A DNA stretch of 15,632 nucleotides from Bremia lactucae. Lineage: Eukaryota; Oomycota; Peronosporomycetes; Peronosporales; Peronosporaceae. Position numbers and translations under genes: made by a program. The stretch spans positions 3,334,893 to 3,350,524 of the forward strand of contig NC_090622.1 in assembly GCF_004359215.1 (NCBI RefSeq), in the 5' to 3' direction. Numbering within the stretch: position 1 is the first letter of the stretch; each line of letters starts with the position of its first letter. Positions 2-15,632 of this stretch are shown in pieces. Below the pieces are notes generated by a model that made no database searches, was not told the DNA's origin, and saw nothing but the letters and a program-made list of their open reading frames with translations.

Positions 2-1153
2 AATGAGAGTGATCTCATGGCAGTACGCACTAAGCGTACTGAAAATGACAAAACAAATGAGTTAGCAGAAGAGTTTCTGCTAACTCGAGAATCAGTTATC
101 CGTTTCGTTCAGGATTCCATTGCTAACGCAGTGGACCGACAGAAACGGAATGCGGACAAACATGGAAGAGCAAATGTTCATTCATTTAATATTAATGATC
201 TAGTGCTACTCTCTACGGTAAACTTACCTAAGCGATTAGTCACTAATGTGGGTAGCAGTAAACTACTACCCAAGTTCATTGGGCCTTTCCGTGTACTGCA
301 TCGAAGAGGCAATGCGTACACAATAGAATTGCCACGTAGGATGCGAACGCATCCTACGTTTTACGTTGGTCGGCTCCGCCCGTACCATCAGTACGCGGCT
401 TCTTCCGAGGACGGATGTGACCACCCTTTTCAAGAATCCCCAAAAGATTCTTGTGATCGCGAACCAGGTTCTCATGTTGAACCTGAAGTTTCTCATGCTT
501 GTTCCGAAGATCCTCGAAACTACGATGAGCTGATGACAGCTCATCGCGAACAGCATGATAGTTCCGCTCGTACTCCAACAAGGAGTACGCACCCTTCGAA
601 CGGTCTTCCAACCGCTCGATATGGTGATTCTGCACCATCTGTTCCAACGAGCGACGCTTACCGCGCTCGTGTTCAAGACCCTCCTCCAAATCATGGAGGA
701 AGTGATCCATTTTGTCGATCTTCGACATTAGATCCGACATACGGTTCGGATCTAATTTTCCCTCCTCCACCACAACCTTTGGTGGACTCCCACGGTGGTC
801 AACGTTTCCTTGTGGAACGCATCCAGAACCACCGTGATGTGAAGGGGCAGCGAACGAGTTATCTTGTTCGCTGGCGAGGTTATCCACCTTCGCATGACAG
901 CTGGGAGCCTCGTTCCCAGCTGGTTGCTAACGTTGAGGCCTCGTCTGTCAGTATGATGAGACTCACCCGATGGTTCAGAAGGCCCATCGGAAAACACGCT
1001 CCCCTGGCGCCTGTAAATCGATTGCAAAACGTCAATCGCATCACGCATCTCAATAGAGATGTGAGCCCTTCCCCAGGGCGAAGAAAGGGAATAGACATCC
1101 CATTTTACTCTTCGAGTTGTCTACACAACACGGACAGGGATCACCCCACGTGA
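2..1153 (+). CDS. Ty3/gypsy pol C-terminus: integrase tail, hinge and chromodomain (5' partial)
   Basis: This is the end of a gypsy-type pol polyprotein. The frame is open to the left edge, so the ATG at 17 is internal and the real start lies outside the window. Numbering from that Met, residues about 1-60 match the end of the integrase region (RQKRNADKHGR). A GPY/F-type module follows with FIGPF at 87-91 and FYVGRLRPYH near 115-124. A long hinge rich in Ser, Pro and Asp leads to a chromodomain at about 264-307 (FLVER, LVRWRGY, DSWEP). In chromoviruses this domain steers integration by binding chromatin. A tail of about 70 residues follows to the TGA. No internal stop is seen. The gene ends 38 bp before the end of an antisense ORF, so the two converge. 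The hinge DNA is crowded with perfect inverted repeats, and one of them (1147-1177) contains the stop codon. Confidence 0.88.
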   Translation, partial: NESDLMAVRTKRTENDKTNELAEEFLLTRESVIRFVQDSIANAVDRQKRNADKHGRANVHSFNINDLVLLSTVNLPKRLVTNVGSSKLLPKFIGPFRVLHRRGNAYTIELPRRMRTHPTFYVGRLRPYHQYAASSEDGCDHPFQESPKDSCDREPGSHVEPEVSHACSEDPRNYDELMTAHREQHDSSARTPTRSTHPSNGLPTARYGDSAPSVPTSDAYRARVQDPPPNHGGSDPFCRSSTLDPTYGSDLIFPPPPQPLVDSHGGQRFLVERIQNHRDVKGQRTSYLVRWRGYPPSHDSWEPRSQLVANVEASSVSMMRLTRWFRRPIGKHAPLAPVNRLQNVNRITHLNRDVSPSPGRRKGIDIPFYSSSCLHNTDRDHPT

Positions 1154-2107
1154 GCCATGGAAGCCCAGCCTCACGTGAAAACCGATGCAATTTATACTTG
1201 CACCGGTTGGAGTTCTTTTCTCATATTTGACGCGATTCGCGTAAGGATTTTAAAGCCAAGCTTCGCGTCCAATGTCTTAGACATTGAGAATGAACGCACC
1301 TCAAGCTTGCATAAGCGAGACTTTATCTCGCTTATTGTTGCCACTAAACCATCGATGCTTAAGAAAGCATCGAGATAGAAATCTTCCTCAGCGCGAAAGT
1401 TCTTCGCGCTGGGATTAAGGCCATGTAGCTTTGTCGCAATAAATAAGGGATATTTATTGTGAGGAGTAGTTTCTCCTGACAAGCTATTGATAAGCCGTTC
1501 TGGCAAAAGCCACGGCTTCTTTTCAGGGGCGAGATGAGACATTTTATTGTCTTCACTCTCCTGAGTGGTACCCACTGAAACAGGGGTACCACGAGAACTT
1601 TTCTTACGATGGATTACGCCATCGTCATCACCTTGCACAGAAACAGGTGCAGGTGACCGTACGGGAGGCGGAACGGGCGATGAGAGATCATCCTCATCGT
1701 CGAATCCAAATAGACTATTAAATCGTCTATCCGAATGAGCCCTCTCATTCGAAGGCTCATAGTCAGCTGCCTGACGTCTGTCATGCGACTGTTCAATTCT
1801 CCCCGAGTCGGCCATTTCGTCCGACTCGCATTCGTAGTTGAACTCCAATGAGGGGTCGTATTCACGTGGTGAATCACCATGTGCACTCGCAACATCTAGT
1901 GTTGTGCGAGTGAAGGATACTACGGCAGACGTTCCATCTGCCGCAAGAGATAGCAGTGCGTCACCCGCGGCTGCACGAACCGCAGCCGAAGGCGCAGCAC
2001 TATCGACACCCCGCATGAGTTTAATCTTCATGTGATGGAATTTGAAATAATGGTTCTGACCAATCAACATTGTTTTTTTTTAAATTAAGTGGTCACATAG
2101 TGACCAC
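3..2107. repeat. Train of perfect short inverted repeats across element 1
   Basis: Perfect inverted repeats with short loops recur through the pol hinge and the antisense ORF. Arm lengths read directly: 21-41 (8), 59-86 (12), 334-359 (12), 431-453 (8), 523-546 (10), 569-589 (8), 727-756 (11), 848-873 (8), 898-922 (9), 1147-1177 (8), 1270-1286 (8), 1311-1335 (10), 1352-1373 (9), 1389-1411 (9), 1437-1459 (9), 1565-1592 (9), 1732-1751 (8), 1804-1828 (8), 1884-1912 (8), 2089-2107 (8). Many 6-7 bp stems fill the gaps, for example 465-485, 967-990, 1492-1518, 1678-1699, 1923-1943 and 1968-1988. Between 1270 and 1459 successive stems start about 40 bp apart. The integrase stretch 87-333 is largely free of them. 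Confidence 0.9.
1192..2070 (-). CDS. Antisense ORF of gypsy element 1 (292 aa, unknown function)
   Basis: This uninterrupted ORF reads against the retroelement, between the end of pol and the 3' LTR. Its ATG (2068-2070) is 83 bp from the LTR and has A at -3 (ACAATG). Later in-frame Mets are possible starts. I recognise no domain. What can be seen is an Ala-rich N-terminal part, then an acidic Asp/Glu/Ser-rich low-complexity stretch with FGFDDEDD and a Pro/Val run. The C-terminal third is more globular, from about EKKPWLLPE onward, and ends basic. No signal peptide or membrane segment is evident. The coding DNA is a chain of perfect hairpins. Some plant gypsy elements of the Tat lineage carry an extra antisense ORF in the same place, which gives a precedent but not homology. 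A structural artefact of the hairpin-rich DNA is the main alternative. Confidence 0.5.
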   Translation of the reverse strand: MLIGQNHYFKFHHMKIKLMRGVDSAAPSAAVRAAAGDALLSLAADGTSAVVSFTRTTLDVASAHGDSPREYDPSLEFNYECESDEMADSGRIEQSHDRRQAADYEPSNERAHSDRRFNSLFGFDDEDDLSSPVPPPVRSPAPVSVQGDDDGVIHRKKSSRGTPVSVGTTQESEDNKMSHLAPEKKPWLLPERLINSLSGETTPHNKYPLFIATKLHGLNPSAKNFRAEEDFYLDAFLSIDGLVATISEIKSRLCKLEVRSFSMSKTLDAKLGFKILTRIASNMRKELQPVQV

Positions 2108-2142
2108 TCGAACCAATGACAGTCAGAGTGATTGTCGTTTAT

Positions 2143-2153
2143 GGGAGGGGTGA
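2143..2153 (+). other. Polypurine tract of element 1
   Basis: A purine run (GGGAGGGGTGA) lies directly against the 3' LTR. This is the expected site and composition of the primer for plus-strand DNA synthesis. It fixes the element as + strand and supports the LTR start at 2154. Confidence 0.75.
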
Positions 2154-2601
2154 TGAACGGGGTGTATCGTTACATGAAATTAACACTTAAAGGTCGTTTT
2201 TAAATATATTATCTAAAAGGTAGATTATATTTGGAGGATATTACTTTAAATAGTAATGTTCAGAAATCTTATTCATAAATAGGTATAGACCATTATACCT
2301 ATTTATCCCGCAGACTAATCAACTGTAGATGTAAACAAAAGAGAGAGACAGATAAGATACGATAAGATTTCAGCTGCATAGTATTAGTTTATAATTAAGT
2401 TAGAGATAACAGATAGAAAGAAGAGATACTTTATTATATCAGTACAGTTTTCATTTTACCCTCTTTAAGCTTGTTACCTTAAAGAGAAGTCTTCCTCTGC
2501 ACGTACTAGTGTACGTGAAATAACGTAAGGCACCACTCGCAGCTGAAGCAGTGCGAAGTGAACTTGTACTGAAGCAGTACAAGTCGAAGTGCCCCGTTAC
2601 A
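2154..2601 (+). repeat. 3' LTR of gypsy element 1 (448 bp)
   Basis: The boundaries come from inverted terminal bases: the left end reads TGAACGGGG and the right end CCCCGTTACA. The second copy at 15257 begins TGTAACGGGG, the exact complement of that right end, so this copy has lost one T. The LTR contains strong inverted repeats: 2275-2306 (13 bp arms, 6-nt loop), 2461-2486 (9 bp arms), 2563-2583 (9 bp arms, loop AAG) and an imperfect pair around 2532-2558. Two TGAAGCAGT units near the 3' end form part of the last stems. No target duplication can be checked because the 5' end of the element is outside the window. Confidence 0.88.
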
Positions 2602-3024
2602 ACTGAGCATGGTGTCCGGCACCATTTGGCTGTCGATTCCAACTAACAAAGCTGTATCGCATTGTTACACGGCTAAAATACAGTGACATTCGCGTTGGCC
2701 GCAATTCAATCGAATCTGGAAAATTCACCCCTTTGCTTGTTTAAGCGGGATAAGGGCGACTCAGCAGTAGGTTCAGTGCACCGTCTTCTGTTATTTTCCT
2801 TTTGCTGTTGTGGCAGAGTTGCGTTCCCCGAACATGAGCATTCCAGGAAAACAGCTTTGATTTCACCATCGGGGCGCTGTCCAACTCTCCTTGTTCTTTC
2901 GCAAGTAAACACGAAGCTTTCATCTTGGAATCGACGGCTTATTGCTAAACGAGCCTCTTCCAAGGATTGTAGGTAGTATGGACGATATCTTCGAGTTGAT
3001 GCATAGTAGTATTAGTAGTTGAAA
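2602..3024. other. Spacer between the two gypsy elements, no supported gene
   Basis: About 420 bp lie between the 3' LTR of element 1 and the 3' LTR of element 2. Short open frames exist on both strands (the longest is under 100 codons), but none has a recognisable domain and they overlap each other. I see no RNA gene and no LTR-like sequence. A small hairpin (ATGGTG/CACCAT) begins just after the LTR end. It may be old host intergenic DNA or an unrecognised repeat fragment. Confidence 0.5.
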
Positions 3025-3511
3025 TGTAGCGGAGCTACCTCGCTACTAAAGTCAGAGGAAGACTTTCAGACTCAGAAAGTCAATTAGTTCTATTGCACTA
3101 ATAGGTTTAACAACTCAGGGAGTCGTACAAGCTATCAAAGCTTAAAAATCATAGTTCAAGGGATTCAGGGGCTCGTAGAACCAAGTGGCGACTAGTGCCC
3201 AAGAGGATATTCCTTAGAAAGGCTTCTATCTCTTACAGATCAATGCGCAAGCCTTAGGAAGGCACTTAACGCTTTTAAGATCAAAAGGGAAATTGCACTT
3301 TATTCAATTATTTAAATTTAAAAACCTTACCCTAGCTAATTAAAAATAGATTTTGGCTGCCAGATTTATAACTGGCGGCGACCACATTTGTTACCCATAA
3401 TAAACGGGATTTAAGTAACTAACTATTATAAAAATTAGATAAAAGGGTATTTTACCCATAAAGAAAATGTACCACAACAACGGTTCTCCAACCGATGTGT
3501 GCCCAATTACA
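3025..3511 (-). repeat. 3' LTR of element 2 (487 bp)
   Basis: It matches 10246-10728 along its whole length. On the + strand it begins TGTAGCGG and ends CAATTACA, so on the element's own strand it runs TGTAATTG to CCGCTACA, with the TG..CA ends of LTRs. Small hairpins recur: GACTTTC/GAAAGTC near 3060, ATTAGT/ACTAAT near 3084, and the CCAG/CTGG stem near 3360. The other LTR holds the same stems with substitutions that partly keep pairing. Confidence 0.9.
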
Positions 3512-3522
3512 CTTCCCCCATC
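3512..3522 (-). other. Polypurine tract of element 2
   Basis: On the - strand the bases next to the 3' LTR read GATGGGGGAAG, ending exactly at the LTR boundary. This is the expected plus-strand primer site. Confidence 0.7.
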
Positions 3523-3621
3523 AGACAGTTGACACCGAGTGACAACATTCGCTTCATTTCCTCTTTGAGGCTGGAACCTAAATAGTTAACCGTTTGGTTG
3601 TGTTTTTCATTCCTTTGTCTA

Positions 3622-3753
3622 ATGACAACCAAGCGTGAGTCACAGACTCTGAGCACCTTCATCGACGATGAGGGAATTATGGACTTTGAAAGTCACTCTC
3701 AATCAGGAGGAGGAAAAATAGCGGCGTTCGCTCACGCCATTTCCTCCGGATGA
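3622..3753 (+). CDS. Short ORF just upstream of the antisense ORF, possibly its detached N-terminus
   Basis: A 43-codon ORF starts 110 bp inside the 3' LTR of element 2 and reads antisense to the element. It begins MTTKRESQTL, is rich in Ser, Gly and charged residues, and ends in TGA. The large antisense ORF lies in the frame one base further on. That frame is open from just after a TAG at 3719-3721, so the two frames overlap for about 30 bp before the ATG at 3773. The arrangement fits an ancestral N-terminus split off by a one-base change near the A run at 3714-3718. It could also be a chance ORF or an upstream ORF. Confidence 0.35.
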   Translation: MTTKRESQTLSTFIDDEGIMDFESHSQSGGGKIAAFAHAISSG

Positions 3754-3772
3754 ACGTCGGCGAGCCCCGAAT

Positions 3773-4855
3773 ATGTTCCCAGAACGTGGTGCCGCTGATG
3801 TCTTAACTGCATTGAGCAGGACGCGGGACCCTGAGTCCAACATCATTACGAATCCGCTCGATGAAGAGCAAGAGCAGATAATTGTCATAGAGGAAAGAGC
3901 TCGTCGTCGAGCTGCCGAGATAGCGAAAGCTAAGGCTCATAGTGAGTATAAATTCACTTCGCTTCGTGCGGACGAGCGTCTCAAAGATATAGCGGGTCAT
4001 AGCTTGGCCATCTGGATCTCTGGTGACCCGGCGAGGACGCAGGAGGAGATCGCTGCTCGCGACGCTTTTCATGAGCAATACCTTACGCCAAAGGTAATGA
4101 CGCGAAGCCAGTATCTGACGCGTTTACGTGATCAAGCCCGTGGGGCTCCGGTGGCCTCCATGAGGGAAATTCCGATCGTTTTGTTTCCAAACGAAACAAG
4201 GACTGAAAACGAAGTCTCATTTGAAAACTGGGTTCACCGGGCCCGCAGACTCCGTAATATCTGGAATATCAGAGAGTCTGCGGATAGAGATGATGTTCGT
4301 TTGGAACGGAAGCATCGCTTCGACTTCGCTAAGCTTAAGGCCAAAGGCCAGTTACGTTCGGCATTAATGCCACAAAACGAAGAAAGGCCTAGCCGATATT
4401 TCAGTGCTTCGGTTGACCGTACAACCAAGGATCGAAGCCGCACTGAGGCTTTAGATCCACCTAATCCCACGTTAAGTGGTGGGAAGCGTCGTTTGACGCG
4501 AGTTGACCCTAAGCTTGGCGCTCAAAAACGTCAACAGCGTACGGGCAATCTTGCCGAAGAGGTACCTCGAACTCCCAAATGTTTTCAGAAGAAAGGTACC
4601 CCAGCCACTTCACAAGATACTGGTATTGATTCTTACGACGACGTCGCTTTAAAAGTTTCTCCACATGAAACTGAAGGATCCCCTGCGCATGAAGCAGCGC
4701 CGGAGGGGGCCGAAATTTCGGCGGAAGCATTTGATGCTTTACGGCACGAGGTGCAACTTCTTTGTGAGGTCCTTGCTCGGGTTGAGAGCTCTTTTGAGGC
4801 GGTTCGGGACCGTCTTTCGACGCTGGAGCGTCAGCAGCCTCGTTTAGAGGGCTAG
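3773..4855 (+). CDS. Antisense ORF of gypsy element 2 (360 aa, coiled-coil-like, unknown function)
   Basis: A long ORF runs against the element, from near the 3' LTR into the chromodomain-coding end of pol. About 736 bp (3773-4508) have no sense coding partner; the rest overlaps the chromodomain frame. The protein is highly charged. Residues about 28-60 form an Arg/Glu/Ala-rich helix (EERARRRAAEIAKAKA). The middle has WVHRARRLRNIWN and a basic Lys/Arg stretch. The C-terminal 50 residues look like a heptad coiled coil (ALRHEVQLLCEVLARVE). After the TAG the same frame stays open for 34 more codons to a TAA at 4951-4953, so the TAG may be a recent Gln-to-stop change. I recognise no family. It stays open although pol beside it is heavily mutated. 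The element 1 antisense protein sits in the same position but shows no similarity by eye. Confidence 0.55.
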   Translation: MFPERGAADVLTALSRTRDPESNIITNPLDEEQEQIIVIEERARRRAAEIAKAKAHSEYKFTSLRADERLKDIAGHSLAIWISGDPARTQEEIAARDAFHEQYLTPKVMTRSQYLTRLRDQARGAPVASMREIPIVLFPNETRTENEVSFENWVHRARRLRNIWNIRESADRDDVRLERKHRFDFAKLKAKGQLRSALMPQNEERPSRYFSASVDRTTKDRSRTEALDPPNPTLSGGKRRLTRVDPKLGAQKRQQRTGNLAEEVPRTPKCFQKKGTPATSQDTGIDSYDDVALKVSPHETEGSPAHEAAPEGAEISAEAFDALRHEVQLLCEVLARVESSFEAVRDRLSTLERQQPRLEG

Positions 4856-4973
4856 TTGGATATCCTGGTGAGGATGCAACAATCTGCGGCACGACCGCCT
4901 GTCTCGGCGCAAGCGCCTTCAAGTTCACGTGGGAAGGGTCCCGATATGGCTTAAGCAAGCCAACGTAAAACAC
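4509..4973 (-). pseudogene. pol block: end of integrase module, hinge and chromodomain
   Basis: This is the last 154 codons of pol. It opens with FYVGLLKPYRDPSHV, the end of the integrase GPY/F module, then a Pro/Ala/Glu-rich hinge, then a chromodomain in the last 55 or so residues (FHVEKLL, YLVKWLGY, NIWEFE). The block itself is open, but its start has no ATG and it continues an upstream block in another frame. The chromodomain DNA is also read on the other strand by the antisense ORF ending at 4855. Confidence 0.8.
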
Positions 4974-5652
4974 TGGGTGTGTACGCAGCTTGCTGGGAAG
5001 GTTGAGCGTATAAGCTAGGCCTTATTAGCCACGACCGTAAATGGTCCAATAAAGCGCGAGCGCAATTTTGTCTTGAAGACCGCGGAATCAAGTTGGTAGG
5101 TAGGTATTTAGCGTTTAGTGAAACTCGGTCTCCGACCGTATAAGAGTTAATACAGCTTCTGCCTTTGGCATCTCCTTGTTCTTTTTGTTTGTCTTGGCTA
5201 TCAGCCATCGTATCCCTTACATGTCTTAAGACACTAGATCGCGTCGCGAGAAACTCGCTTACTTGTTTCTGAACGGTAACAGGGCTGATATCAGCAAGCC
5301 TATCGGCCAATTTTCCCCCACCAAGCCCTGAACCACGCAGTGGTATCGTTAATGGAACGCGCGGGTGGGTAAGACCGTTTACGTAGAACGGAGTATAGCC
5401 TGTAGAGGCATGAACAGCGTTATTTAACGCAAACTCCACTACTGGGAGCATTGAGCTCCAACGCTTTGGTGTCTGAGCACACACGCTGCGTAAAACGTCT
5501 TCAATGACGCGATTGACACGTTCAGTTTGACCATCGGTCTGCGGATGGTCCGCAGTGGACATATCCGATCTGGTGCCAAGCACACGGAAAATTGATTTCC
5601 AGAATTTACCCGTGAAACGGAGATCCCGATCAGAGTCAATTGCCACTGGCAA
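4951..5652 (-). pseudogene. pol block: second half of integrase core and C-terminal region
   Basis: This block carries the second and third catalytic acids of the integrase DDE triad: Asp in SDRDLRFTGKFW and Glu in QTDGQTERVNR. A conserved stretch follows (VEFALNNAVHASTGYTPFYV), as usual in gypsy integrases. Near 5090 the frame is lost inside the GPY/F module: the RFIGPF peptide is readable in another frame, then GLAYTLNLP in a third near 5010. Confidence 0.85.
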
Positions 5653-6392
5653 ACCATGTTGTCGAGAAACACGCGATCGATAAACAGCTTAGCTGTAACC
5701 TCTCCATCAATGGAATCCGGCACGGCCGCTAGGTGAGCCATTTTGCTCAAACGCTCAACAAAGACCACTATACCGGAGCTACCGGCTGAATTTTTTGGTA
5801 GCCCAAAAACAAAATTCATACTAATGGACTCTCAGCATCCGATGGGATCGGGAAGACTCGCCAGGGGCGCAGCAGCATGTGCCGAGGGTTTAACCCATTG
5901 GCACGTTTCGCATGTGCGAACATATATGCTGACCCATTTATAAAGTTTAGGCCACCAATAATTCTGGCTGATAGAGCCGTAGGTCTTTTCTCTACCGAGA
6001 TGACCACCAAGGACAGTATCGTGTGCCTCATAGAGGATCCGGTACTTCAAATCCTCATCATGAGGAGCAACGACACGTGAAGGGTCCGCGATGTCTGTGC
6101 AATAAAGCAACAGGTCGTTATCGATAGAAAATCGATATAAACTTGCACGCAAACGTGCCGGTAATTCAATACCTGAATCCGACTTCTTTAAAGCTCGTAG
6201 CAGAGCTACACACTGTTCATCCTTGGTGTAAGCCAAACGGATTAATCCAGGAAAAGGTGACGAGATAGTCGTTAAATGAGAAACCTCATAATCCGGCCTG
6301 CGTGATAACGCATCGGCCAAAGCATTTTGCTTGCCGGGTTTATACTTCACTGCGAAGTTATATTCCGCAAAAAAGGATAGCCATCTGGCCAT
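5439..6392 (-). pseudogene. pol block: integrase zinc finger and start of catalytic core
   Basis: The first part (6392 down to about 6300) is the end of RNase H and the connection (SFFAEYNFAVKYKPGKQNALADALSRR). An HHCC zinc-binding module follows (EAHDTVLGGHLGREKT and CETCQW). A TGA near 5831 interrupts the frame where a Trp is likely, and the core resumes with MNFVFGLPK and IVVFVERLSKMAHL. In related integrases the M-x-F position holds the first catalytic Asp. Here it is Asn, so even a translated copy should be inactive. The frame is lost again near 5660, and the remainder down to 5439 is out of frame. Confidence 0.85.
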
Positions 6393-6414
6393 TCTCTGTT
6401 AGAGATGGGGCGAC

Positions 6415-7218
6415 TTAGTCGCCGTGCGTAATGACGCGTGATGTATAAATCACAAACGGCTTAGAGCCGAGCAGATGAACTCTGAATTTGACGAGAGCAT
6501 ACTTCATAGCAAGTAACTCTTTGTCATGAACTGGGTAGTTCTTTTCCGCAGCTTTAAGCTGTCTAGACTCGAACGCAATAACACGTTCATGCCCATCAAC
6601 ATCTGTTTGTAACAGAGCACTGCCAATGGCAAAATCTGATGCGTCACAGACGACACTGAAAGGCCAATTTGGGTTTGGCAGTGCCAGAATCGGGGCATGG
6701 ATAAGACTATCCTTAACTGCTCGAAAAGCATTATTTTCGGTGCTAGTCCAGCACCATTCTGTATCCTTTTTAAGGAGATTAGATAATGGCCTAGCCATAT
6801 CAGCGTAATTTTCGCTATATTTGTGTAAATAATTGGCGAGACCCAACCACTTACGCAAATCCTTTTGGTTTTTAGGAACCGGCCAATCTACTATGGCTTT
6901 TACCTTAGCGGGATCCGCTCTAAGTCCTCGCTTTCCAATGAAGCATCCTAAAAAAGGAAATTTGCCTGCGCCAAAAATGCATTTAGATGCATTGGCATAC
7001 AATTTGTTTGTGCGCATGCACTCGAGCACTTCTCGCAAATGGTCTAAATGGTTTTCCATATCCGACCGACCCTGCTTCGCACGACTATGGACAAAAATGT
7101 CATCGAAATAAGTCTGTGCATAACCTCGATGAGGGCGAAACAGTTGCGTCACTAGACGTTTAAATGTTGCCGGGGCGTCGGAAAGCCCTTGTGGCATAAC
7201 CAGCCACTCCCATAACAT
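6415..7218 (-). pseudogene. pol block: RT palm and RNase H
   Basis: A 267-codon open block holds the RT core: MPQGLSDAPATF, then the catalytic YFDDIFVHS box (YxDD), then the thumb region (LGCFIGKRGLRADPAKVKAI). An RNase H domain follows with CDASDFAIGSALLQ carrying the first catalytic Asp, then SRQLKAAEKNYPVHDKELLA. The block ends out of frame just where the next RNase H catalytic Asp is expected (FVIYT). Translation starts at an internal Met (MLWEWLVMP), with the fingers in other frames upstream. Confidence 0.9.
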
Positions 7219-7560
7219 GCCGCTTGGTGTGCTAACCGCTGCAAGGGAGTATCACTAGCTCGCATGAGCAATTGGTAGTAACTATCGACTTAGTCCAATG
7301 CACTGTACATCGTACATCCCACCATATTGTTCTGAAGAACATCCTTTCTGGGAATGGGGGTTTGTGCTGGTATAGTGGCAGCATTAAGCTTATTATAAGC
7401 ATGTACAATGCGCCATTTACCATTTGGCTTTTTGACACAAAATGTCGGTGTCAATGAGGAGATTTGTTCTCTCGCACCATTCCAGCCTCGTGATTAGCAC
7501 GGAAGAAATCGTCAATGACGTCACACTGCTCCTTTGGTAAAGGCCATTGTCTCGTGACAC
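7219..7560 (-). pseudogene. pol block: RT fingers, broken over several frames
   Basis: Reading successive frames on the - strand gives TQYCVTRQWPLPKEQ, FFRANHEAGMV, then FCVKKPNGKWRIVHAYNKLN and DVLQNNMVGCTMYSALD, all typical of gypsy RT fingers. A stop or frame change near 7455, a TAA near 7290 (where Leu is usual) and a frame change near 7245 separate them. Confidence 0.8.
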
Positions 7561-8402
7561 AATATTGGGTTCCCCGGAACTAAGTCAATTTCATGACGAA
7601 CACCTCTATCCGGAGGTAAAACAGATGGTGAATAATTACATACCACATCTTGAAAACCCTTAATTAAGGAATAAAAGGGATCCGTAGGATCTTTAAGGAT
7701 CGATGACCCATTTCGCGCACTTAGTGCAGCTTTTGTGTCATCCAGGACAGCTTCGTCGAGAAGTGACGATGAGTTTAACTCAACCATAGGTCGAATGACC
7801 ACCATTTCAAATAAGTCACCAGCTTTTAAGGCTCGACCGCACTCATCAATAGATATTTCGTCTAGCTCTAAAAGAGCATGTAACGAGGGGATTGCCGCAA
7901 GGCTAACTTCCCCCTCGATGTAATCGGTTACGCCATTTACAAGCGTATGTACTTGCTCACTCGTATCACTTTGTGAGGGTATACACGCTTCGTGTCCACC
8001 CTGTCTTGGAGTGGAGACAATACGCCTCTTTGAGGCCGGGACATTCACGTCCCCGGGTTTTCCAGCCTGTATTGGTTCTATACAAGAAATGGTGACTAAT
8101 TTGACATCCGACAAGGAGTTAGGTAACTTAACTTCCTTATCCAGCGAACATTTACGTGTCGCTTCACGTGCATTAGGAGAGTTTGACCCAAAATGCCCTG
8201 GCGAACCGCCAATAGTTTCACTATTGACACTCAGTATGGTGCCACCTCGGCCGACCACACTCGGTGGAATTAGACGTGCCACTCCACGTATCTCAGGATA
8301 ATTGCACCCTTGGGGTCCTGGCGAACCGCCAACAGTGTCACTAGTGACACTCAGTATGATGCCACCTCGGCCGACCATACTCGGTAGACTTAGGCGTGCC
8401 AC
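7521..8402 (-). pseudogene. pol block: protease-RT linker and start of RT
   Basis: An open block of 293 codons. Its first 80 or so residues are two in-frame copies of a 40-residue unit (NYPEIRGVARL, VGRGG, GGSPG). The middle is acidic and unrecognised (LHALLELDEISIDECGRALKAG). The end is the conserved lead-in to RT: VLPPDRGVRHEIDLVPG. The frame is lost right after this near 7557. Linkers between protease and RT are variable in gypsy elements, so the repeated part probably has no catalytic role. Confidence 0.75.
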
Positions 8403-8433
8403 TCCACGTATCTCAGGGTAATTGCACCTTTGC
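8197..8433. repeat. 120-bp tandem duplication in the pol linker
   Basis: Unit 1 (8197-8316) and unit 2 (8317 to about 8433) align base for base with scattered changes. Both begin CCTGGCGAACCGCC and share CTCAGTATG, CACCTCGGCCGACCA and CGTGCCACTCCACGTATCTC. The offset of 120 keeps the pol frame. Unit 2 contains an 18-nt perfect palindrome at 8334-8351. The matching bases of unit 1 instead form a shifted hairpin (AATAGT/ACTATT). Confidence 0.85.
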
Positions 8434-8443
8434 GGATTCGGCC

Positions 8444-8812
8444 TTAGGCCAACAATGCTTTCAGCATTTTGTGAATCGTTATTATAACGAGTGTCACTCG
8501 ACGGAGTACGTGCCGTTCCCTTATTTCTGCTGAGTCGGGCTCAGAATTAATGTCTTTAACATTAGAGTTTATGAACTCAGACATATTAATGTCTAAAACA
8601 CTGACAGACTCATTCAATGATTTGCGCCAATAGCGCTTTTGTTGCCTAGCAAAGGTGGGTTCATGACTCTCCAAAACTTTGCTAGGAACATTGCGCGCGG
8701 CGCCTAAGGTCTCAGACCTCCAATCGGTCCATGGCTCATGGTGTTCTAACGAGGCCATACCAAGGATGAGATCATAACTCGAATCTTAACCAAGGACAAG
8801 ACAGCGTTCCAT
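8444..8812 (-). pseudogene. pol block: end of the aspartic protease
   Basis: In this frame the protease resumes after a frame change, with FLDFDS then SSYDLILGMASLEHHEPWTDWRS, the flap-to-end region of retroviral-type proteases in gypsy elements (LILGM, then W..W). A TAA near 8791 cuts it. The rest to 8444 is an unrecognised charged linker ending in a stop near 8444. Confidence 0.75.
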
Positions 8813-8816
8813 ACTG

Positions 8817-9356
8817 TCAAAGTCCAGAAACTTTAAACCTAAGTTCAACTTTGGGAACAGTGACACGAGTCCCAGTCGCTAAGCTAACAGTGATTGTATT
8901 ACCTTCATGCGCTCTAAGCGCCTCAACGTATTGTTGACTTCCTTCAAGGGGAAGGCGTCGAGCATAATTGCAAGACGTTCCAGAGTCAATTAAAATTGAC
9001 CACGGCTTATCAAAGCTCTTTACAGTCGCTTGAGCGACTAGCAAGCCAGGCTTGTACTCTCGCCCCGTGCCATTGAGCATTGAGCTAATTGGGGCTAGGT
9101 TATGTTTATTCTCACCTCCTAGAGGCTCAACAGAGCCTAGGTCTCCCCAGTAGGGCGCCCCGCACCTACTGAGTATCGACGTTTTCCCGCACCGTACCAG
9201 ATCTCTGGTATAAGTCGGAGTTGGGGCTCTTTCGAGCTTTACGCGAATTTCGAAGAGGGCAGACAGGGCGTAAATGCTTCGTGCTTCCGCACATATAACA
9301 TCTACGGATGGTCTTATGCTGTTCCGCAGCTTGAAAAGCCTCTTCTCCTTTGTCAT
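8817..9356 (-). pseudogene. pol block: aspartic protease active-site region
   Basis: This frame overlaps the last 191 bp of gag and is +1 relative to it. It carries the retropepsin-like active site ILIDSGTSCNYARR (Asp codon at 8985-8987), preceded by a Gly/Pro-rich lead. Only the part after roughly 9170 is likely real protease sequence, since the overlapped part is in the shadow of the gag zinc knuckle. The frame ends at 8817 inside the protease fold. The gag-pol join could be a programmed +1 frameshift, as in yeast Ty3, or simple mutation in a decayed copy. Confidence 0.75.
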
Positions 9357-10185
9357 CGAGGCTTAAATCCATAGGTTCCGCTCTATTAGACGGAACCCAT
9401 GTGCTCGAAGAGCTTGTTCGGTAGACAGGCGTGCTAACGCGGGCAGACTTGAAGTCAAACTCTGCGCGTAGCGCTATGGCAACTGCCTCTTCGAACGTAG
9501 CCGGATGAGAACGGAACAATTCCGTCCGGTCAACGACCTCATTGAGACCCCCCATAAAGATGGTAACTACAATTGCTTCTTGCACCGGGTCTTGATGCAT
9601 AGATGCAATGAAAGTTCTCAACTCCTGGACAAAGTCCCCTAGAGTTCTTTTACCCAGTCGAGTCTCTAGAAGCCGGGCTCGCATGCGAAAAGCCTGATCA
9701 GGCGGTGCAAACATGCTGGTCATTTGCTGTTTCAGCGAATCCCATGAGGAAAAAGCGTCGTTTATGGGTGTGCTGCACGATAGTGCCCACTCCATGGCTC
9801 TACCTCCAAGTTTGGAAATGGCCATAGCCACCTTTTGCCGTTCTGTTAAGAACAAGGCGGAATCAATGGACATTTCCATCTGCTTAATCCCAAAAGGGAG
9901 ATTTTCTCCCTCTTTTCCATCAAATATCTTCATATTTACAGTTAGAGGGCGAGCCCTTAGCTCTGAGTCAGGTGCAGAGATGTACCGGGTTGGAATAGAT
10001 GCCGCTAAATGGTCCTGTACCTGACCGATCAGTGAGGCTTCGTACCGCATGAAGGCTTCAAGCCTTGCATGCAGGACTTCGGGTCCCTGGGAGATAATAA
10101 ATTCCACGTGCTCAAGCCCGAATAAGGTTTTGAGCTTGTCATAAGCGGCGCGTTGCGCTACTGATAATTCTGGAACCTCTTCCAT
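9166..10185 (-). CDS. gag: Gag of gypsy element 2 (capsid plus CCHC zinc knuckle, 339 aa)
   Basis: Gag forms the virus-like particle and binds element RNA. The ATG at 10183-10185 lies 60 bp inside the 5' LTR, a short leader. Residues about 85-245 fit the Retrotrans_gag fold: KIFDGKEG, a predicted helical stretch with W, SSWDSLKQQMTSMFAPP, then RTLGDFVQELRTF. A single zinc knuckle CX2CX4HX4C occupies C296, C299, H304 and C309, followed by a basic tail. The frame has no internal stop, unlike pol. Its last 191 bp overlap the protease frame (+1). Gag intact beside broken pol may be chance, or the copy may have been mobilised in trans. Confidence 0.9.
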   Translation of the reverse strand: MEEVPELSVAQRAAYDKLKTLFGLEHVEFIISQGPEVLHARLEAFMRYEASLIGQVQDHLAASIPTRYISAPDSELRARPLTVNMKIFDGKEGENLPFGIKQMEMSIDSALFLTERQKVAMAISKLGGRAMEWALSCSTPINDAFSSWDSLKQQMTSMFAPPDQAFRMRARLLETRLGKRTLGDFVQELRTFIASMHQDPVQEAIVVTIFMGGLNEVVDRTELFRSHPATFEEAVAIALRAEFDFKSARVSTPVYRTSSSSTWVPSNRAEPMDLSLDDKGEEAFQAAEQHKTIRRCYMCGSTKHLRPVCPLRNSRKARKSPNSDLYQRSGTVRENVDTQ

Positions 10186-10235
10186 TTTCGTGAGAAATGA
10201 GTCTTGTAAAGGCTCAGGCGTAGATTGTCTACGAG

Positions 10236-10243
10236 TGCTACCA
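10236..10243 (-). other. Primer binding site of element 2, initiator Met tRNA-like
   Basis: Two bases inside the 5' LTR the element reads TGGTAGCA, complementary to a tRNA 3' end TGCTACCA. Animal initiator Met tRNAs end in these eight bases, and iMet is a common primer in Ty3/gypsy elements. The match does not continue beyond eight bases with the tRNA I know, so the tRNA identity is an inference. Confidence 0.55.
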
Positions 10244-10245
10244 GG

Positions 10246-10728
10246 TGTAGCGGAGCTTCCTCGCTCCTAAGTCAGAGGAAGACTTTCAGACTCAGAGAGT
10301 CGATTAGTTCTATTGAACTAATGGGTTTAACAACTCAGGGAGTCGTACAAGCTTTCAAAGCTTAAGGAATCCTAGTTCAAGGGATTCAGGGGTTCGTAGA
10401 ACCTAGTGGCAACTCGTGCCCAAGAGGATATACCTTAGAAAGGTTTCTATCTCTTACAGATCAATGCGCAAGCCTTAGGAAGGCACTTAAGCTTATAAGA
10501 TCAAAAGAGGAACTGCACTTTTTTAATTGTATAAATCTAAAAGCCTTACCCTAGCTAATTAAAAATAGATTCTGGCCGCCAGATTTATATCTGGCGGCGA
10601 CCACATTTGTTACCCATAACAAATGGGATTTAAGTAACTAACTATTTTAGAATTAGATAAAAGGTATTTTACCCATAAAGTAAATGTACCACAACAACGG
10701 TTCTCCAACCGATGTGTGCCCCATTACA
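10246..10728 (-). repeat. 5' LTR of element 2 (483 bp)
   Basis: It pairs with 3025-3511. On the + strand it begins TGTAGCGG and ends CCATTACA. A chain of small hairpins is readable: GACTTTC/GAGAGTC with one G.U pair, ATTAGTTC/GAACTAAT (8 bp), AAGCTTT/AAAGCTT (7), GGTTC/GAACC, ACCTT/AAGGT, GCCTT/AAGGC, CCGCCAGAT/ATCTGGCGG (9), CCCAT/ATGGG and CGGTT/AACCG. As the 5' LTR it should hold the element promoter, but I cannot place a start site. Confidence 0.9.
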
Positions 10729-10949
10729 TGTAATGGCAGAAACTGGAAAGGGTATGGTACGGTAATATGGAATGGTATGAAGTACAAGCTTTTCCATCGC
10801 GATCGTTGTGTCATGAATTCAAATCCAGGGGTATTCGCTCCAGCCAATTAAAGCTCGTTAATACAGCCTAGGGTAATCCATCAATAACTCAAGGGTTCTG
10901 CATTGGGGGGGGGGCTGGTCAGCCAAAACTGGGGGTGGTTAGCGGATCC
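10729..10949. other. Flank to the right of element 2, with a G10 run and no supported gene
   Basis: This 221-bp stretch holds a purine-rich segment with repeated GGTA/GGAATGG words near 10745-10775 and ten consecutive G at 10905-10914, followed by another G5 at about 10931. Short frames here have no recognisable content. Confidence 0.5.
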
Positions 10950-14628: not shown

Positions 14629-15256
14629 GCGTTTTTCGCTTATTTTCTTACAGCAACAGAAGCAGTATTCAAGCACAGTGCCAATTGAAGCTGTAGCTAC
14701 TTAGTCAATAGCATCCAATTTGGCGCGTCTTTATCTATAAGCACGACATTTATATTGGCAAACTCGGATTCAAAGCTGCCGATTTTTCATTGGCTACTCG
14801 AAAATAGGTAACCCTTAACATTTTTCGGCTACAAATTTGTAAGCTTCGTTGGCTAGTACAAGTAAGAATGGAATTGGACATGGAAGGAGGCACTTAACGA
14901 TTGGGAGCATACTTCATTTGAATCGAGTAATAGCCGAGTGTGAAACAACCGATCATAAGGTAGGCCTCTGCGACGAAAAGTTTGCGCCTTATTGATCAGA
15001 AACCGCTATCGATTTAAACTCAAAAGTTGCGAGAATAGCGAAACTTGGCAGTTTAAAATGTGGAAAATACTTTAATTAGTATCGATTTGCTTCGAGTGAG
15101 TGAGTAGAAATGCGAATATTTAAAAATTGTAGCGTCTTACATGTCAAGTCTGGCTCGGGACCTGATAGGCTATTGCATTGATGACGACAGTAAGGTACAT
15201 GCCGATCAAATTGGCACTGCATACTTAGACAAATCTAGTGGTGATCAGGCTGAAGA
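14629..15256. other. 3' region of the FYVE-DUSP gene and intergenic DNA
   Basis: No open frame of note and no RNA gene is seen in these 628 bp. The start should hold the 3' untranslated region. I could not identify a reliable polyadenylation signal. The LTR that follows begins directly at 15257. Confidence 0.5.
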
Positions 15257-15632
15257 TGTAACGGGGTGTATCGTTACATGAAATTAACACTTAAAGGTTG
15301 TTAATTAATATATTATCTTAAGGTAGATAATATTTGGAGGATATTACTTTGTATAGTAATATCCTGAATTCTTATCCATAAATAGGTATAGGCCATTATA
15401 TCTATTTATTCCGCAGACCAATTAGCTGTAGAAGTAATCAAAGAGAGTTACAAGATAAGATAGAGATAAGAATTCATTTACATGTTTAGTATTAGGTTAT
15501 AGTTAAGTCAGCATTTACAAAGATAGATTAAGAGACACTTAACTATATTAATGCAGTTTTCATTTTACCCTCTTAAGTTAACTTGTCTTAAGAGAAGTCT
15601 TCCTCTGCACGTACAGTGTACGTCACCTAACG
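15257..15632 (+). repeat. LTR of the element 1 family, cut by the window edge
   Basis: It begins TGTAACGGGG and aligns with 2154-2528 in the same orientation. It could be a 5' LTR of an element extending to the right, or a solo LTR. It holds strong inverted repeats: 15310-15333 (9 bp arms), 15338-15365 (11 bp arms, loop of 6), 15378-15409 (13 pairs, one G.U) and 15570-15594 (8 bp arms). It lies about 630 bp after the stop of the FYVE-DUSP gene. Confidence 0.85.

Follow-up and report, generated by a model that had tools for sequence, protein, structure and literature searches.

Minute inversions linked to hairpins occur in plastid DNA, where the loop between palindromic arms flips in a homoplastic manner; these lie in plastid spacers, unlike the nuclear retroelement considered here. 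Template switching in DNA replication makes perfect hairpins and inverts spacers, and the exact inversion of a spacer between short arms is the footprint of a switch to the opposite strand (PMC8794818; PMC8604942). Here we analyze a 15,632-nt stretch of the genome of the oomycete Bremia lactucae (contig 13, positions 3,334,893-3,350,524; hereafter, the window), which begins within a hairpin-rich mobile element that, judged from its sequence, is a member of a very abundant chromodomain Ty3/Gypsy long terminal repeat (LTR) retrotransposon family. At 10 hairpins of this element, some copies differ from the rest in having the loop exactly reverse-complemented between unchanged arms and flanks, and this exact loop inversion at hairpins is the finding that is new here. 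All genome-wide counts given below cover the 115.9-Mb assembly of 220 contigs, that is, one genome.

Each of the closest described systems shares some features with the Bremia element and differs from it in others. The hairpins that template-switch mutations form and preserve in microRNA and ribosomal RNA (rRNA) genes resemble those described here in having perfect stems, strand-symmetric copying, and inverted loops (up to 7-8 nt there), but they are isolated stems attributed to a DNA polymerase, whereas here a whole retrotransposon is involved, the inverted loops reach 11 nt, and the inversions are mostly internal (PMC8794818). In Saccharomyces, short spacers flip recurrently between unchanged short arms, with coding consequences, as they do here; ten events among genes are described there, with arms longer than 9 bp, whereas the element has many hairpins per copy, arms of 8-13 bp, and, within one family, seven hairpins that account for at least 17 changes (PMC8604942). 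The mitochondrial genomes of Nematomorpha likewise contain perfect inverted repeats in functional coding sequences, far above chance expectation, but these belong to an organelle and have arms of up to 284 bp, and the abstract of that report does not mention loop inversions (PMC6649704). As for the element itself, the Chronos elements of oomycetes, which are defined by an additional RNase H of the archaeal/plant type, are also Ty3/Gypsy elements whose pol ends in a chromodomain; the words hairpin and antisense are absent from the Chronos paper (PMC5348765). A literature search of titles and abstracts found neither saturation with hairpins nor inversion of their loops reported for an LTR retrotransposon.

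A preceding sequence-only reading of this DNA had claimed at least 20 perfect inverted repeats of 8-12 bp, at least 17 of them with loops of 12 nt or less, where fewer than one would be expected by chance, and stems spaced by ∼40 bp. Our counts agree with these figures: positions 1-2107 contain 20 perfect stems (8-12 bp, loops of up to 15 nt), whereas 100 dinucleotide shuffles averaged 0.56 and never exceeded 3; the loop is at most 12 nt long in 18 of the 20, and the starts at 1270, 1311, 1352, 1389, and 1437 display the close spacing. Overall, there is about one hairpin per 105 bp, in coding and noncoding parts alike. Apart from the hairpins with inverted loops, which are located below, the internal part has hairpins at 59-86 (arms of 12 bp, loop of 4 nt), 431-453 (8-bp arms, 7-nt loop), 523-546 (10 and 4), 569-589 (8 and 5), 727-756 (11 and 8), 848-873 (8 and 10), 1270-1286 (8 and 1), 1311-1335 (10 and 5), 1352-1373 (9 and 4), 1437-1459 (9 and 5), 1565-1592 (9 and 10), 1732-1751 (8 and 4), 1884-1912 (8 and 13), and 2088-2108 (9 and 3). 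The limit set at position 2107 by the earlier reading was too narrow: stems continue into the LTR, with 3 stems of at least 8 bp at 2140-2640 against 0.2 expected and 5 against 0.1 in the related stretch 15250-15632, and probably also into the reverse transcriptase part of the element (L070 and L078). The stretch 2108-3500 as a whole has 3 stems against 0.36 in shuffles, and in the range 1-2640, 37 stem positions are perfect in at least three aligned copies. Chance, base composition, or codon usage can be dismissed as practically negligible explanations; protein motifs such as PTFYVG are, by eye, partly palindromic at the codon level, but synonymous-codon shuffles leave 0.41 stems in pol and 0.26 in the antisense frame, against 9 observed in each, and these explanations are rejected on this result and on the dinucleotide shuffles.

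In window coordinates, inverted loops were found at 21-41 (arms of 8 bp, loop of 5 nt; inverted in copies L013, L046, and L049), 334-359 (12 and 2; L021, L029, L038, L060, and L084), 898-922 (9 and 7; the inner 3-nt loop in L023), 1147-1177 (8 and 15; the inner 11-nt loop in L024), 1389-1411 (9 and 5; L010 and L024), 1804-1828 (8 and 9; L047 and 22 places genome-wide), and 1923-1943 (one mismatch in the window copy; the 3-nt loop in 8 of 62 copies). The 10 hairpins include, in addition, two stretches upstream of the window start and a 5-nt block near position 1234 (arms of 6), whereas a single-base T/A loop of that stem, at 1223-1249, and a CT loop at 1352-1373 were left uncounted. Because short reverse-strand alignments can fake inverted loops, alignments of less than 150 bases were dropped, and an inversion was counted only if present in the filtered alignments or in an independent pairwise scan; the fetched copies were the best-matching ones rather than a random sample. 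The pairwise scan, covering 3,008 alignments (4.1 Mb) and registering blocks equal to their own inverse, returned 272 pair events with arms of at least 6 bp, compared to 0 for plain reversal and 6 for the complement, all of the latter being CTC/GAG, where complement and inverse coincide. These events fall on 9 hairpins, or 10 with the 2-nt loop of 334-359.

On a tree of the 62 copies from which the loops had been excluded, the inverted loops of seven hairpins, 21 in all, correspond to at least 17 changes, a number that may be inflated by recombination between copies. One inversion is shared with identical flanks by L013, L046, and L049, so that some inversions, at least, were copied on. The hairpin at 597-620 presents a combined case: it is imperfect in the window copy, whereas the L079 subfamily has perfect arms and a 6-nt loop that, by eye, is the inverse of the window loop bar one difference. 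Three copies, L024, L021, and L013, carry two separate inverted loops each; flips may cluster in single copying events.

To compare the internal region with the LTR, patterns allowing up to three mismatches were counted throughout the genome. For the hairpin at 1804-1828, searched together with its left flank, there were 1,474 normal and 22 inverted occurrences (22/1,496), with nine different loop sequences among the inverted ones, and 0 matches to a backwards control pattern. By contrast, the LTR hairpin at 2275-2306 (13-bp arms, 6-nt loop) yielded 1,487 normal and 0 inverted occurrences (Fisher p = 4e-7). A second LTR hairpin, at 2178-2202, has the same arm and loop length as 1804-1828 (8-bp arms in other copies, imperfect in the window copy, and a 9-nt loop) and yielded 4,164 normal occurrences and at most 1 inverted; its inverted pattern returned five matches, all with three mismatches, of which four have a flank that fits a normal copy in the opposite orientation, the fifth being ambiguous. 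The LTR of the window copy has two further hairpins, at 2461-2486 (9-bp arms, 8-nt loop) and 2562-2584 (10-bp arms, 3-nt loop).

The excess of hairpins is a property of certain Gypsy families, strongest in the window family, rather than a genome-wide feature. In a set of ten arbitrarily chosen 2-kb stretches, 54 stems were counted against 3.1 expected, and 45 of the 54 lay in five stretches: L069, L073, and L074, which are family copies by blastn, and L070 (10 stems against 0.7 expected) and L078 (8 against 0.5), which, given their frames resembling reverse transcriptase and RNase H, probably represent pol of the hairpin-rich family. The other five stretches held 9 stems (0, 2, 2, 4, and 1), with none in the Copia-like L071. 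Another LTR element, L076, accounts for 4 of these 9, against 0.2 expected. The sequence-only reading had named the same density across ordinary host genes as a refuting result and had described only scattered stems of 5-6 bp in the host FYVE-DUSP gene; this gene indeed shows no excess (0 stems of at least 8 bp, and 2 of at least 7 bp against 2.1 expected). An intergenic stretch had 1 stem against 0.5, and the eight best integrase matches (L001-L008, several of them Copia-like by eye) had 15 against ∼5. Among related chromodomain families, L084 has 9 stems against 0.4 and L079 5 against 0.3, the nearly identical L081 and L083 (99% alike) have 6 and 4, each against 0.3, and L080 and L082 have 1 each, against 0.4 and 0.3, respectively. 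The two 12-bp hairpins of the window family occur at the aligned codons in none of L077, L080, L081, and L082. L081/L083, which belong to a different chromodomain family, contain many perfect stems at codon positions that differ from those of the window family. A candidate case of hairpin centers shared at the same codons by two families was abandoned, as the codon alignment left only the PTFYVG motif with its partly palindromic codons. L076 (835-863) and L077 (80-108), two copies of another LTR element, share the same 9-bp arms around an 11-nt loop that differs at 5 of the 11 positions, which, by eye, is not an inversion.

The loop inversions most likely originate from the element's own reverse transcriptase switching template at inverted repeats, an explanation to which we assign about an even chance of being correct. 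A growing complementary DNA (cDNA) that has copied one arm would pair with this arm as it occurs on an opposite-polarity template, copy the loop and the other arm from there, and then switch back; such an event would flip the loop and could turn an imperfect hairpin into a perfect one. Over many replication cycles, switching would be likely to build up hairpins at positions that differ by family. Two candidates for the opposite-polarity template are the second RNA genome, while the plus strand is being synthesized, and an antisense transcript of the element itself, which would span the internal part and leave out the LTR. Once formed, the hairpins are probably maintained with the help of selection; switching and selection may act together, the former generating hairpins and flipping loops and the latter preserving them. 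If the inversions arose by a process on chromosomal DNA, LTRs in the same locations should not be spared, and if they arose by a general one, no restriction to particular families would be expected; from this, we infer that inversion belongs to the element's own copying.

Several observations weigh against this explanation. The contrast with the LTR rests on one internal hairpin and two AT-rich LTR hairpins, and it does not reach significance in the fetched copies, where 14 of 931 are inverted in the internal region and 0 of 161 in the LTR (p = 0.24). The LTRs are rich in hairpins the loops of which do not invert, so that the presence of hairpins and their inversion come apart. Copying of one arm onto the other left little trace: no stem in any copy had two or more compensatory changes, and 5 of 114 private mutation clusters matched nearby inverted sequence, compared to 3, 5, and 2 for the complement, reversed, and direct controls, respectively. 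Furthermore, the arms lack ∼41 shared variants over 525 sites, with only 2 compensated pairs (in at least 4 copies), which points to selection rather than repair. Of the two footprints expected from the template-switch repair that the sequence-only reading had proposed, the better known, exact inversion of the spacer, is repeatedly present, whereas homogenization of the arms could not be clearly discerned.

An antisense transcript of the element, if made, would be a ready template of opposite polarity for the internal part. On the minus strand, frame A (1192-2070; 292 amino acids) has 19 relatives and matches the N-terminal parts of the downy mildew proteins P0137 and P0133, and frame B (354-887; 177 amino acids), which overlaps the pol hinge and chromodomain, has 24 relatives and matches the C-terminal parts of the same two proteins. 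Specifically, P0137 matches frame A with residues 6-86 (67% identity) and frame B with residues 247-381 (64%), and the Hyaloperonospora protein P0133 does so with residues 31-228 (44%) and 386-461 (45%). Shared variants favor the third antisense codon position in both regions (0.112, 0.146, and 0.253 for positions one to three in 354-887, p = 0.001; 0.113, 0.171, and 0.205 in 1192-2070, p = 0.009), and there is no codon-position pattern in the sense frame between copies (p = 0.28). Given that both frames match single proteins and show this antisense codon bias, they probably constitute one long antisense gene of the element that is split in the window copy. The antisense open reading frame recognized earlier at 1192-2070 is probably part of this longer gene, which overlaps pol. 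Pfam contains no family matching frame A. Antisense genes are familiar from human T-cell leukemia virus type 1 (HBZ), human immunodeficiency virus (ASP), and the plant retrotransposon Grande, where they lie on the opposite strand near the 3' end and overlap or adjoin sense genes; as far as Pfam shows, the proteins are unrelated. Hairpins and two of the inversion sites fall outside the antisense gene.

The principal alternative, which we regard as possible though doubtful, is selection that acts on structure in both strands and thereby maintains the hairpins, with loop inversion as a side effect. Both the sense genome and the RNA of the antisense gene (or both cDNA strands) would then need to fold; self-folding would stop sense and antisense RNAs from annealing into silencing triggers, and only Watson-Crick stems would serve both. 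This symmetry is apparent in the data. Folding z-scores of 120-base pieces average -3.8 on the plus strand and -3.9 on the minus strand (-0.7 and -0.4 in the FYVE gene), and in four tests, G-U was not preferred over A-C: the counts were 253 and 246 among one-sided stem changes between copies, 56 and 48 among stem variants in at least 3 copies (10 and 10 among majority mispairs), 6 and 4 in one-mismatch stems, and 16 and 21 among shared transitions as read in the sense strand (21 and 24 on the family stem set). Selection on a single RNA strand should favor G-U, so that ordinary RNA structure extending over the whole sense transcript, of the kind found in certain RNA viruses, is disfavored and appears very improbable, even though the low folding energy throughout is what it would produce. 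The arms are also constrained. With stems taken from the window copy alone, inverted loops left out, and variants required in at least 4 other copies, shared variants per site amount to 0.095 in arms (525 sites), 0.167 in loops, and 0.173 outside, a value for arms that none of 2,000 shifted masks reached, whereas single-copy variants are about equal (0.70, 0.64, and 0.67, respectively). Picking stems intact in one copy lowers the arm value by an estimated 13%, too small an effect to cover the difference. It appears that the arms are kept while the element spreads and, after insertion, decay like other sites. Depletion in arms is stronger for transversions (ratio 0.41) than for transitions (0.61), and compensation is seen in 42 of 73 double changes, compared to 9-18 of 63-88 in slid controls, although this count is inflated by shared descent. 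The relatives and codon-position bias of the antisense gene fit selection on both strands as well. Opposed to it, hairpin positions are not conserved between families, stem density is equal where no antisense gene is known (the LTR and the reverse transcriptase part), and the constraint, clear in the 3' internal region (where none of the 2,000 shifted masks was as low), is not significant in the LTR (0.13-0.24) and in pol depends on the stems chosen (0.017 with stems of at least 7 bp, 0.13 with those of at least 8 bp). The suggestion in the sequence-only reading of RNA structure selected equally on both strands thus gains from the symmetry and the constrained arms, while selection on one strand only is disfavored.

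Host replication or repair acting on integrated copies, through template switching at forks or through cruciform extrusion and religation, is an improbable source of the inversions. DNA polymerases that switch template do invert spacers in yeast genes (PMC8604942), and loop inversion is documented in rRNA genes (PMC8794818). Hairpin-linked inversion in plastids is a further precedent for such an origin, but the LTR hairpins in the same Bremia chromosomes hardly invert, the hairpin excess is family-specific and missing from the FYVE gene and the Copia-like stretch, and the inversion common to three copies, with its identical flanks, was passed on by copying. Template switching by reverse transcriptase and selection on both strands could also be parts of one picture, which is tentative and rather unlikely as a whole: a retrotransposon living on both strands, in which a sense gag-pol and a long antisense gene would overlap, Watson-Crick hairpins would be kept in both RNAs, and reverse transcriptase would hop between the transcripts at hairpins, flipping loops only where the transcripts overlap and not in the LTRs.

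Template switching at inverted repeats has been known from events scattered among genes; the present element preserves a record of it in thousands of copies and at many hairpins, which makes it possible to measure how often it happens, with what arm and loop lengths, and how it is divided between the LTR and the internal region. If reverse transcriptase is responsible, the pattern reports on opposite-polarity templates present during cDNA synthesis, and template jumping would shape a whole mobile element. The result also bears on whether selection is needed to account for dense hairpins in coding DNA, and the antisense gene that overlaps pol adds a feature that has been little explored in the retroelements of downy mildews.

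The 3' end of pol occupies positions 2-1153 of the plus strand and is open at the window edge, as delimited by its reading frame and Pfam. Within this frame, PF00385 (48.3 bits) and PF24626 (54.5 bits) both score above their cut-offs; a Tf2-1-like SH3 domain lies at about 197-388 (frame residues 66-129) and a chromodomain at about 809-925 (residues 270-308), at the C terminus of pol, with an unconserved hinge between them. The part previously labeled integrase (87-333) is, by Pfam, the SH3 domain. The previous view that stems largely spare conserved coding sequence holds for this part of this copy, where no stem of at least 8 bp lies wholly within 87-333, but fails when the whole element is considered (L070, L078, and L084). 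Several related proteins combine PF00665 and PF17921 with the same C-terminal domains; an integrase core upstream in the same frame would fall outside the window. The closest named relatives of the element's proteins come from Peronospora and Hyaloperonospora; searches among viral and prokaryotic contigs found no relatives, and no Rfam family matched the window at gathering scores. The published B. lactucae assembly spans 115 Mb including gaps, and Gypsy elements make up 58.6% of the contig sequence (PMC6570648).

The 3' LTR of the element extends over approximately 2150-2640 on the plus strand, as delimited by eye and by its match to 15256-15632, where a further, similarly oriented LTR from the hairpin-rich family is truncated by the window end. 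The host FYVE-DUSP gene is located on the plus strand, from 12784 to about 14630 (FYVE, 47.9 bits; DUSP, 38.4 bits). A second LTR element spans, by eye, about 3015-10740, with similar ends at about 3015-3520 and 10248-10740 and gag-like and pol-like stretches inside; its right LTR contains 4 perfect stems of at least 8 bp and its left LTR 0.

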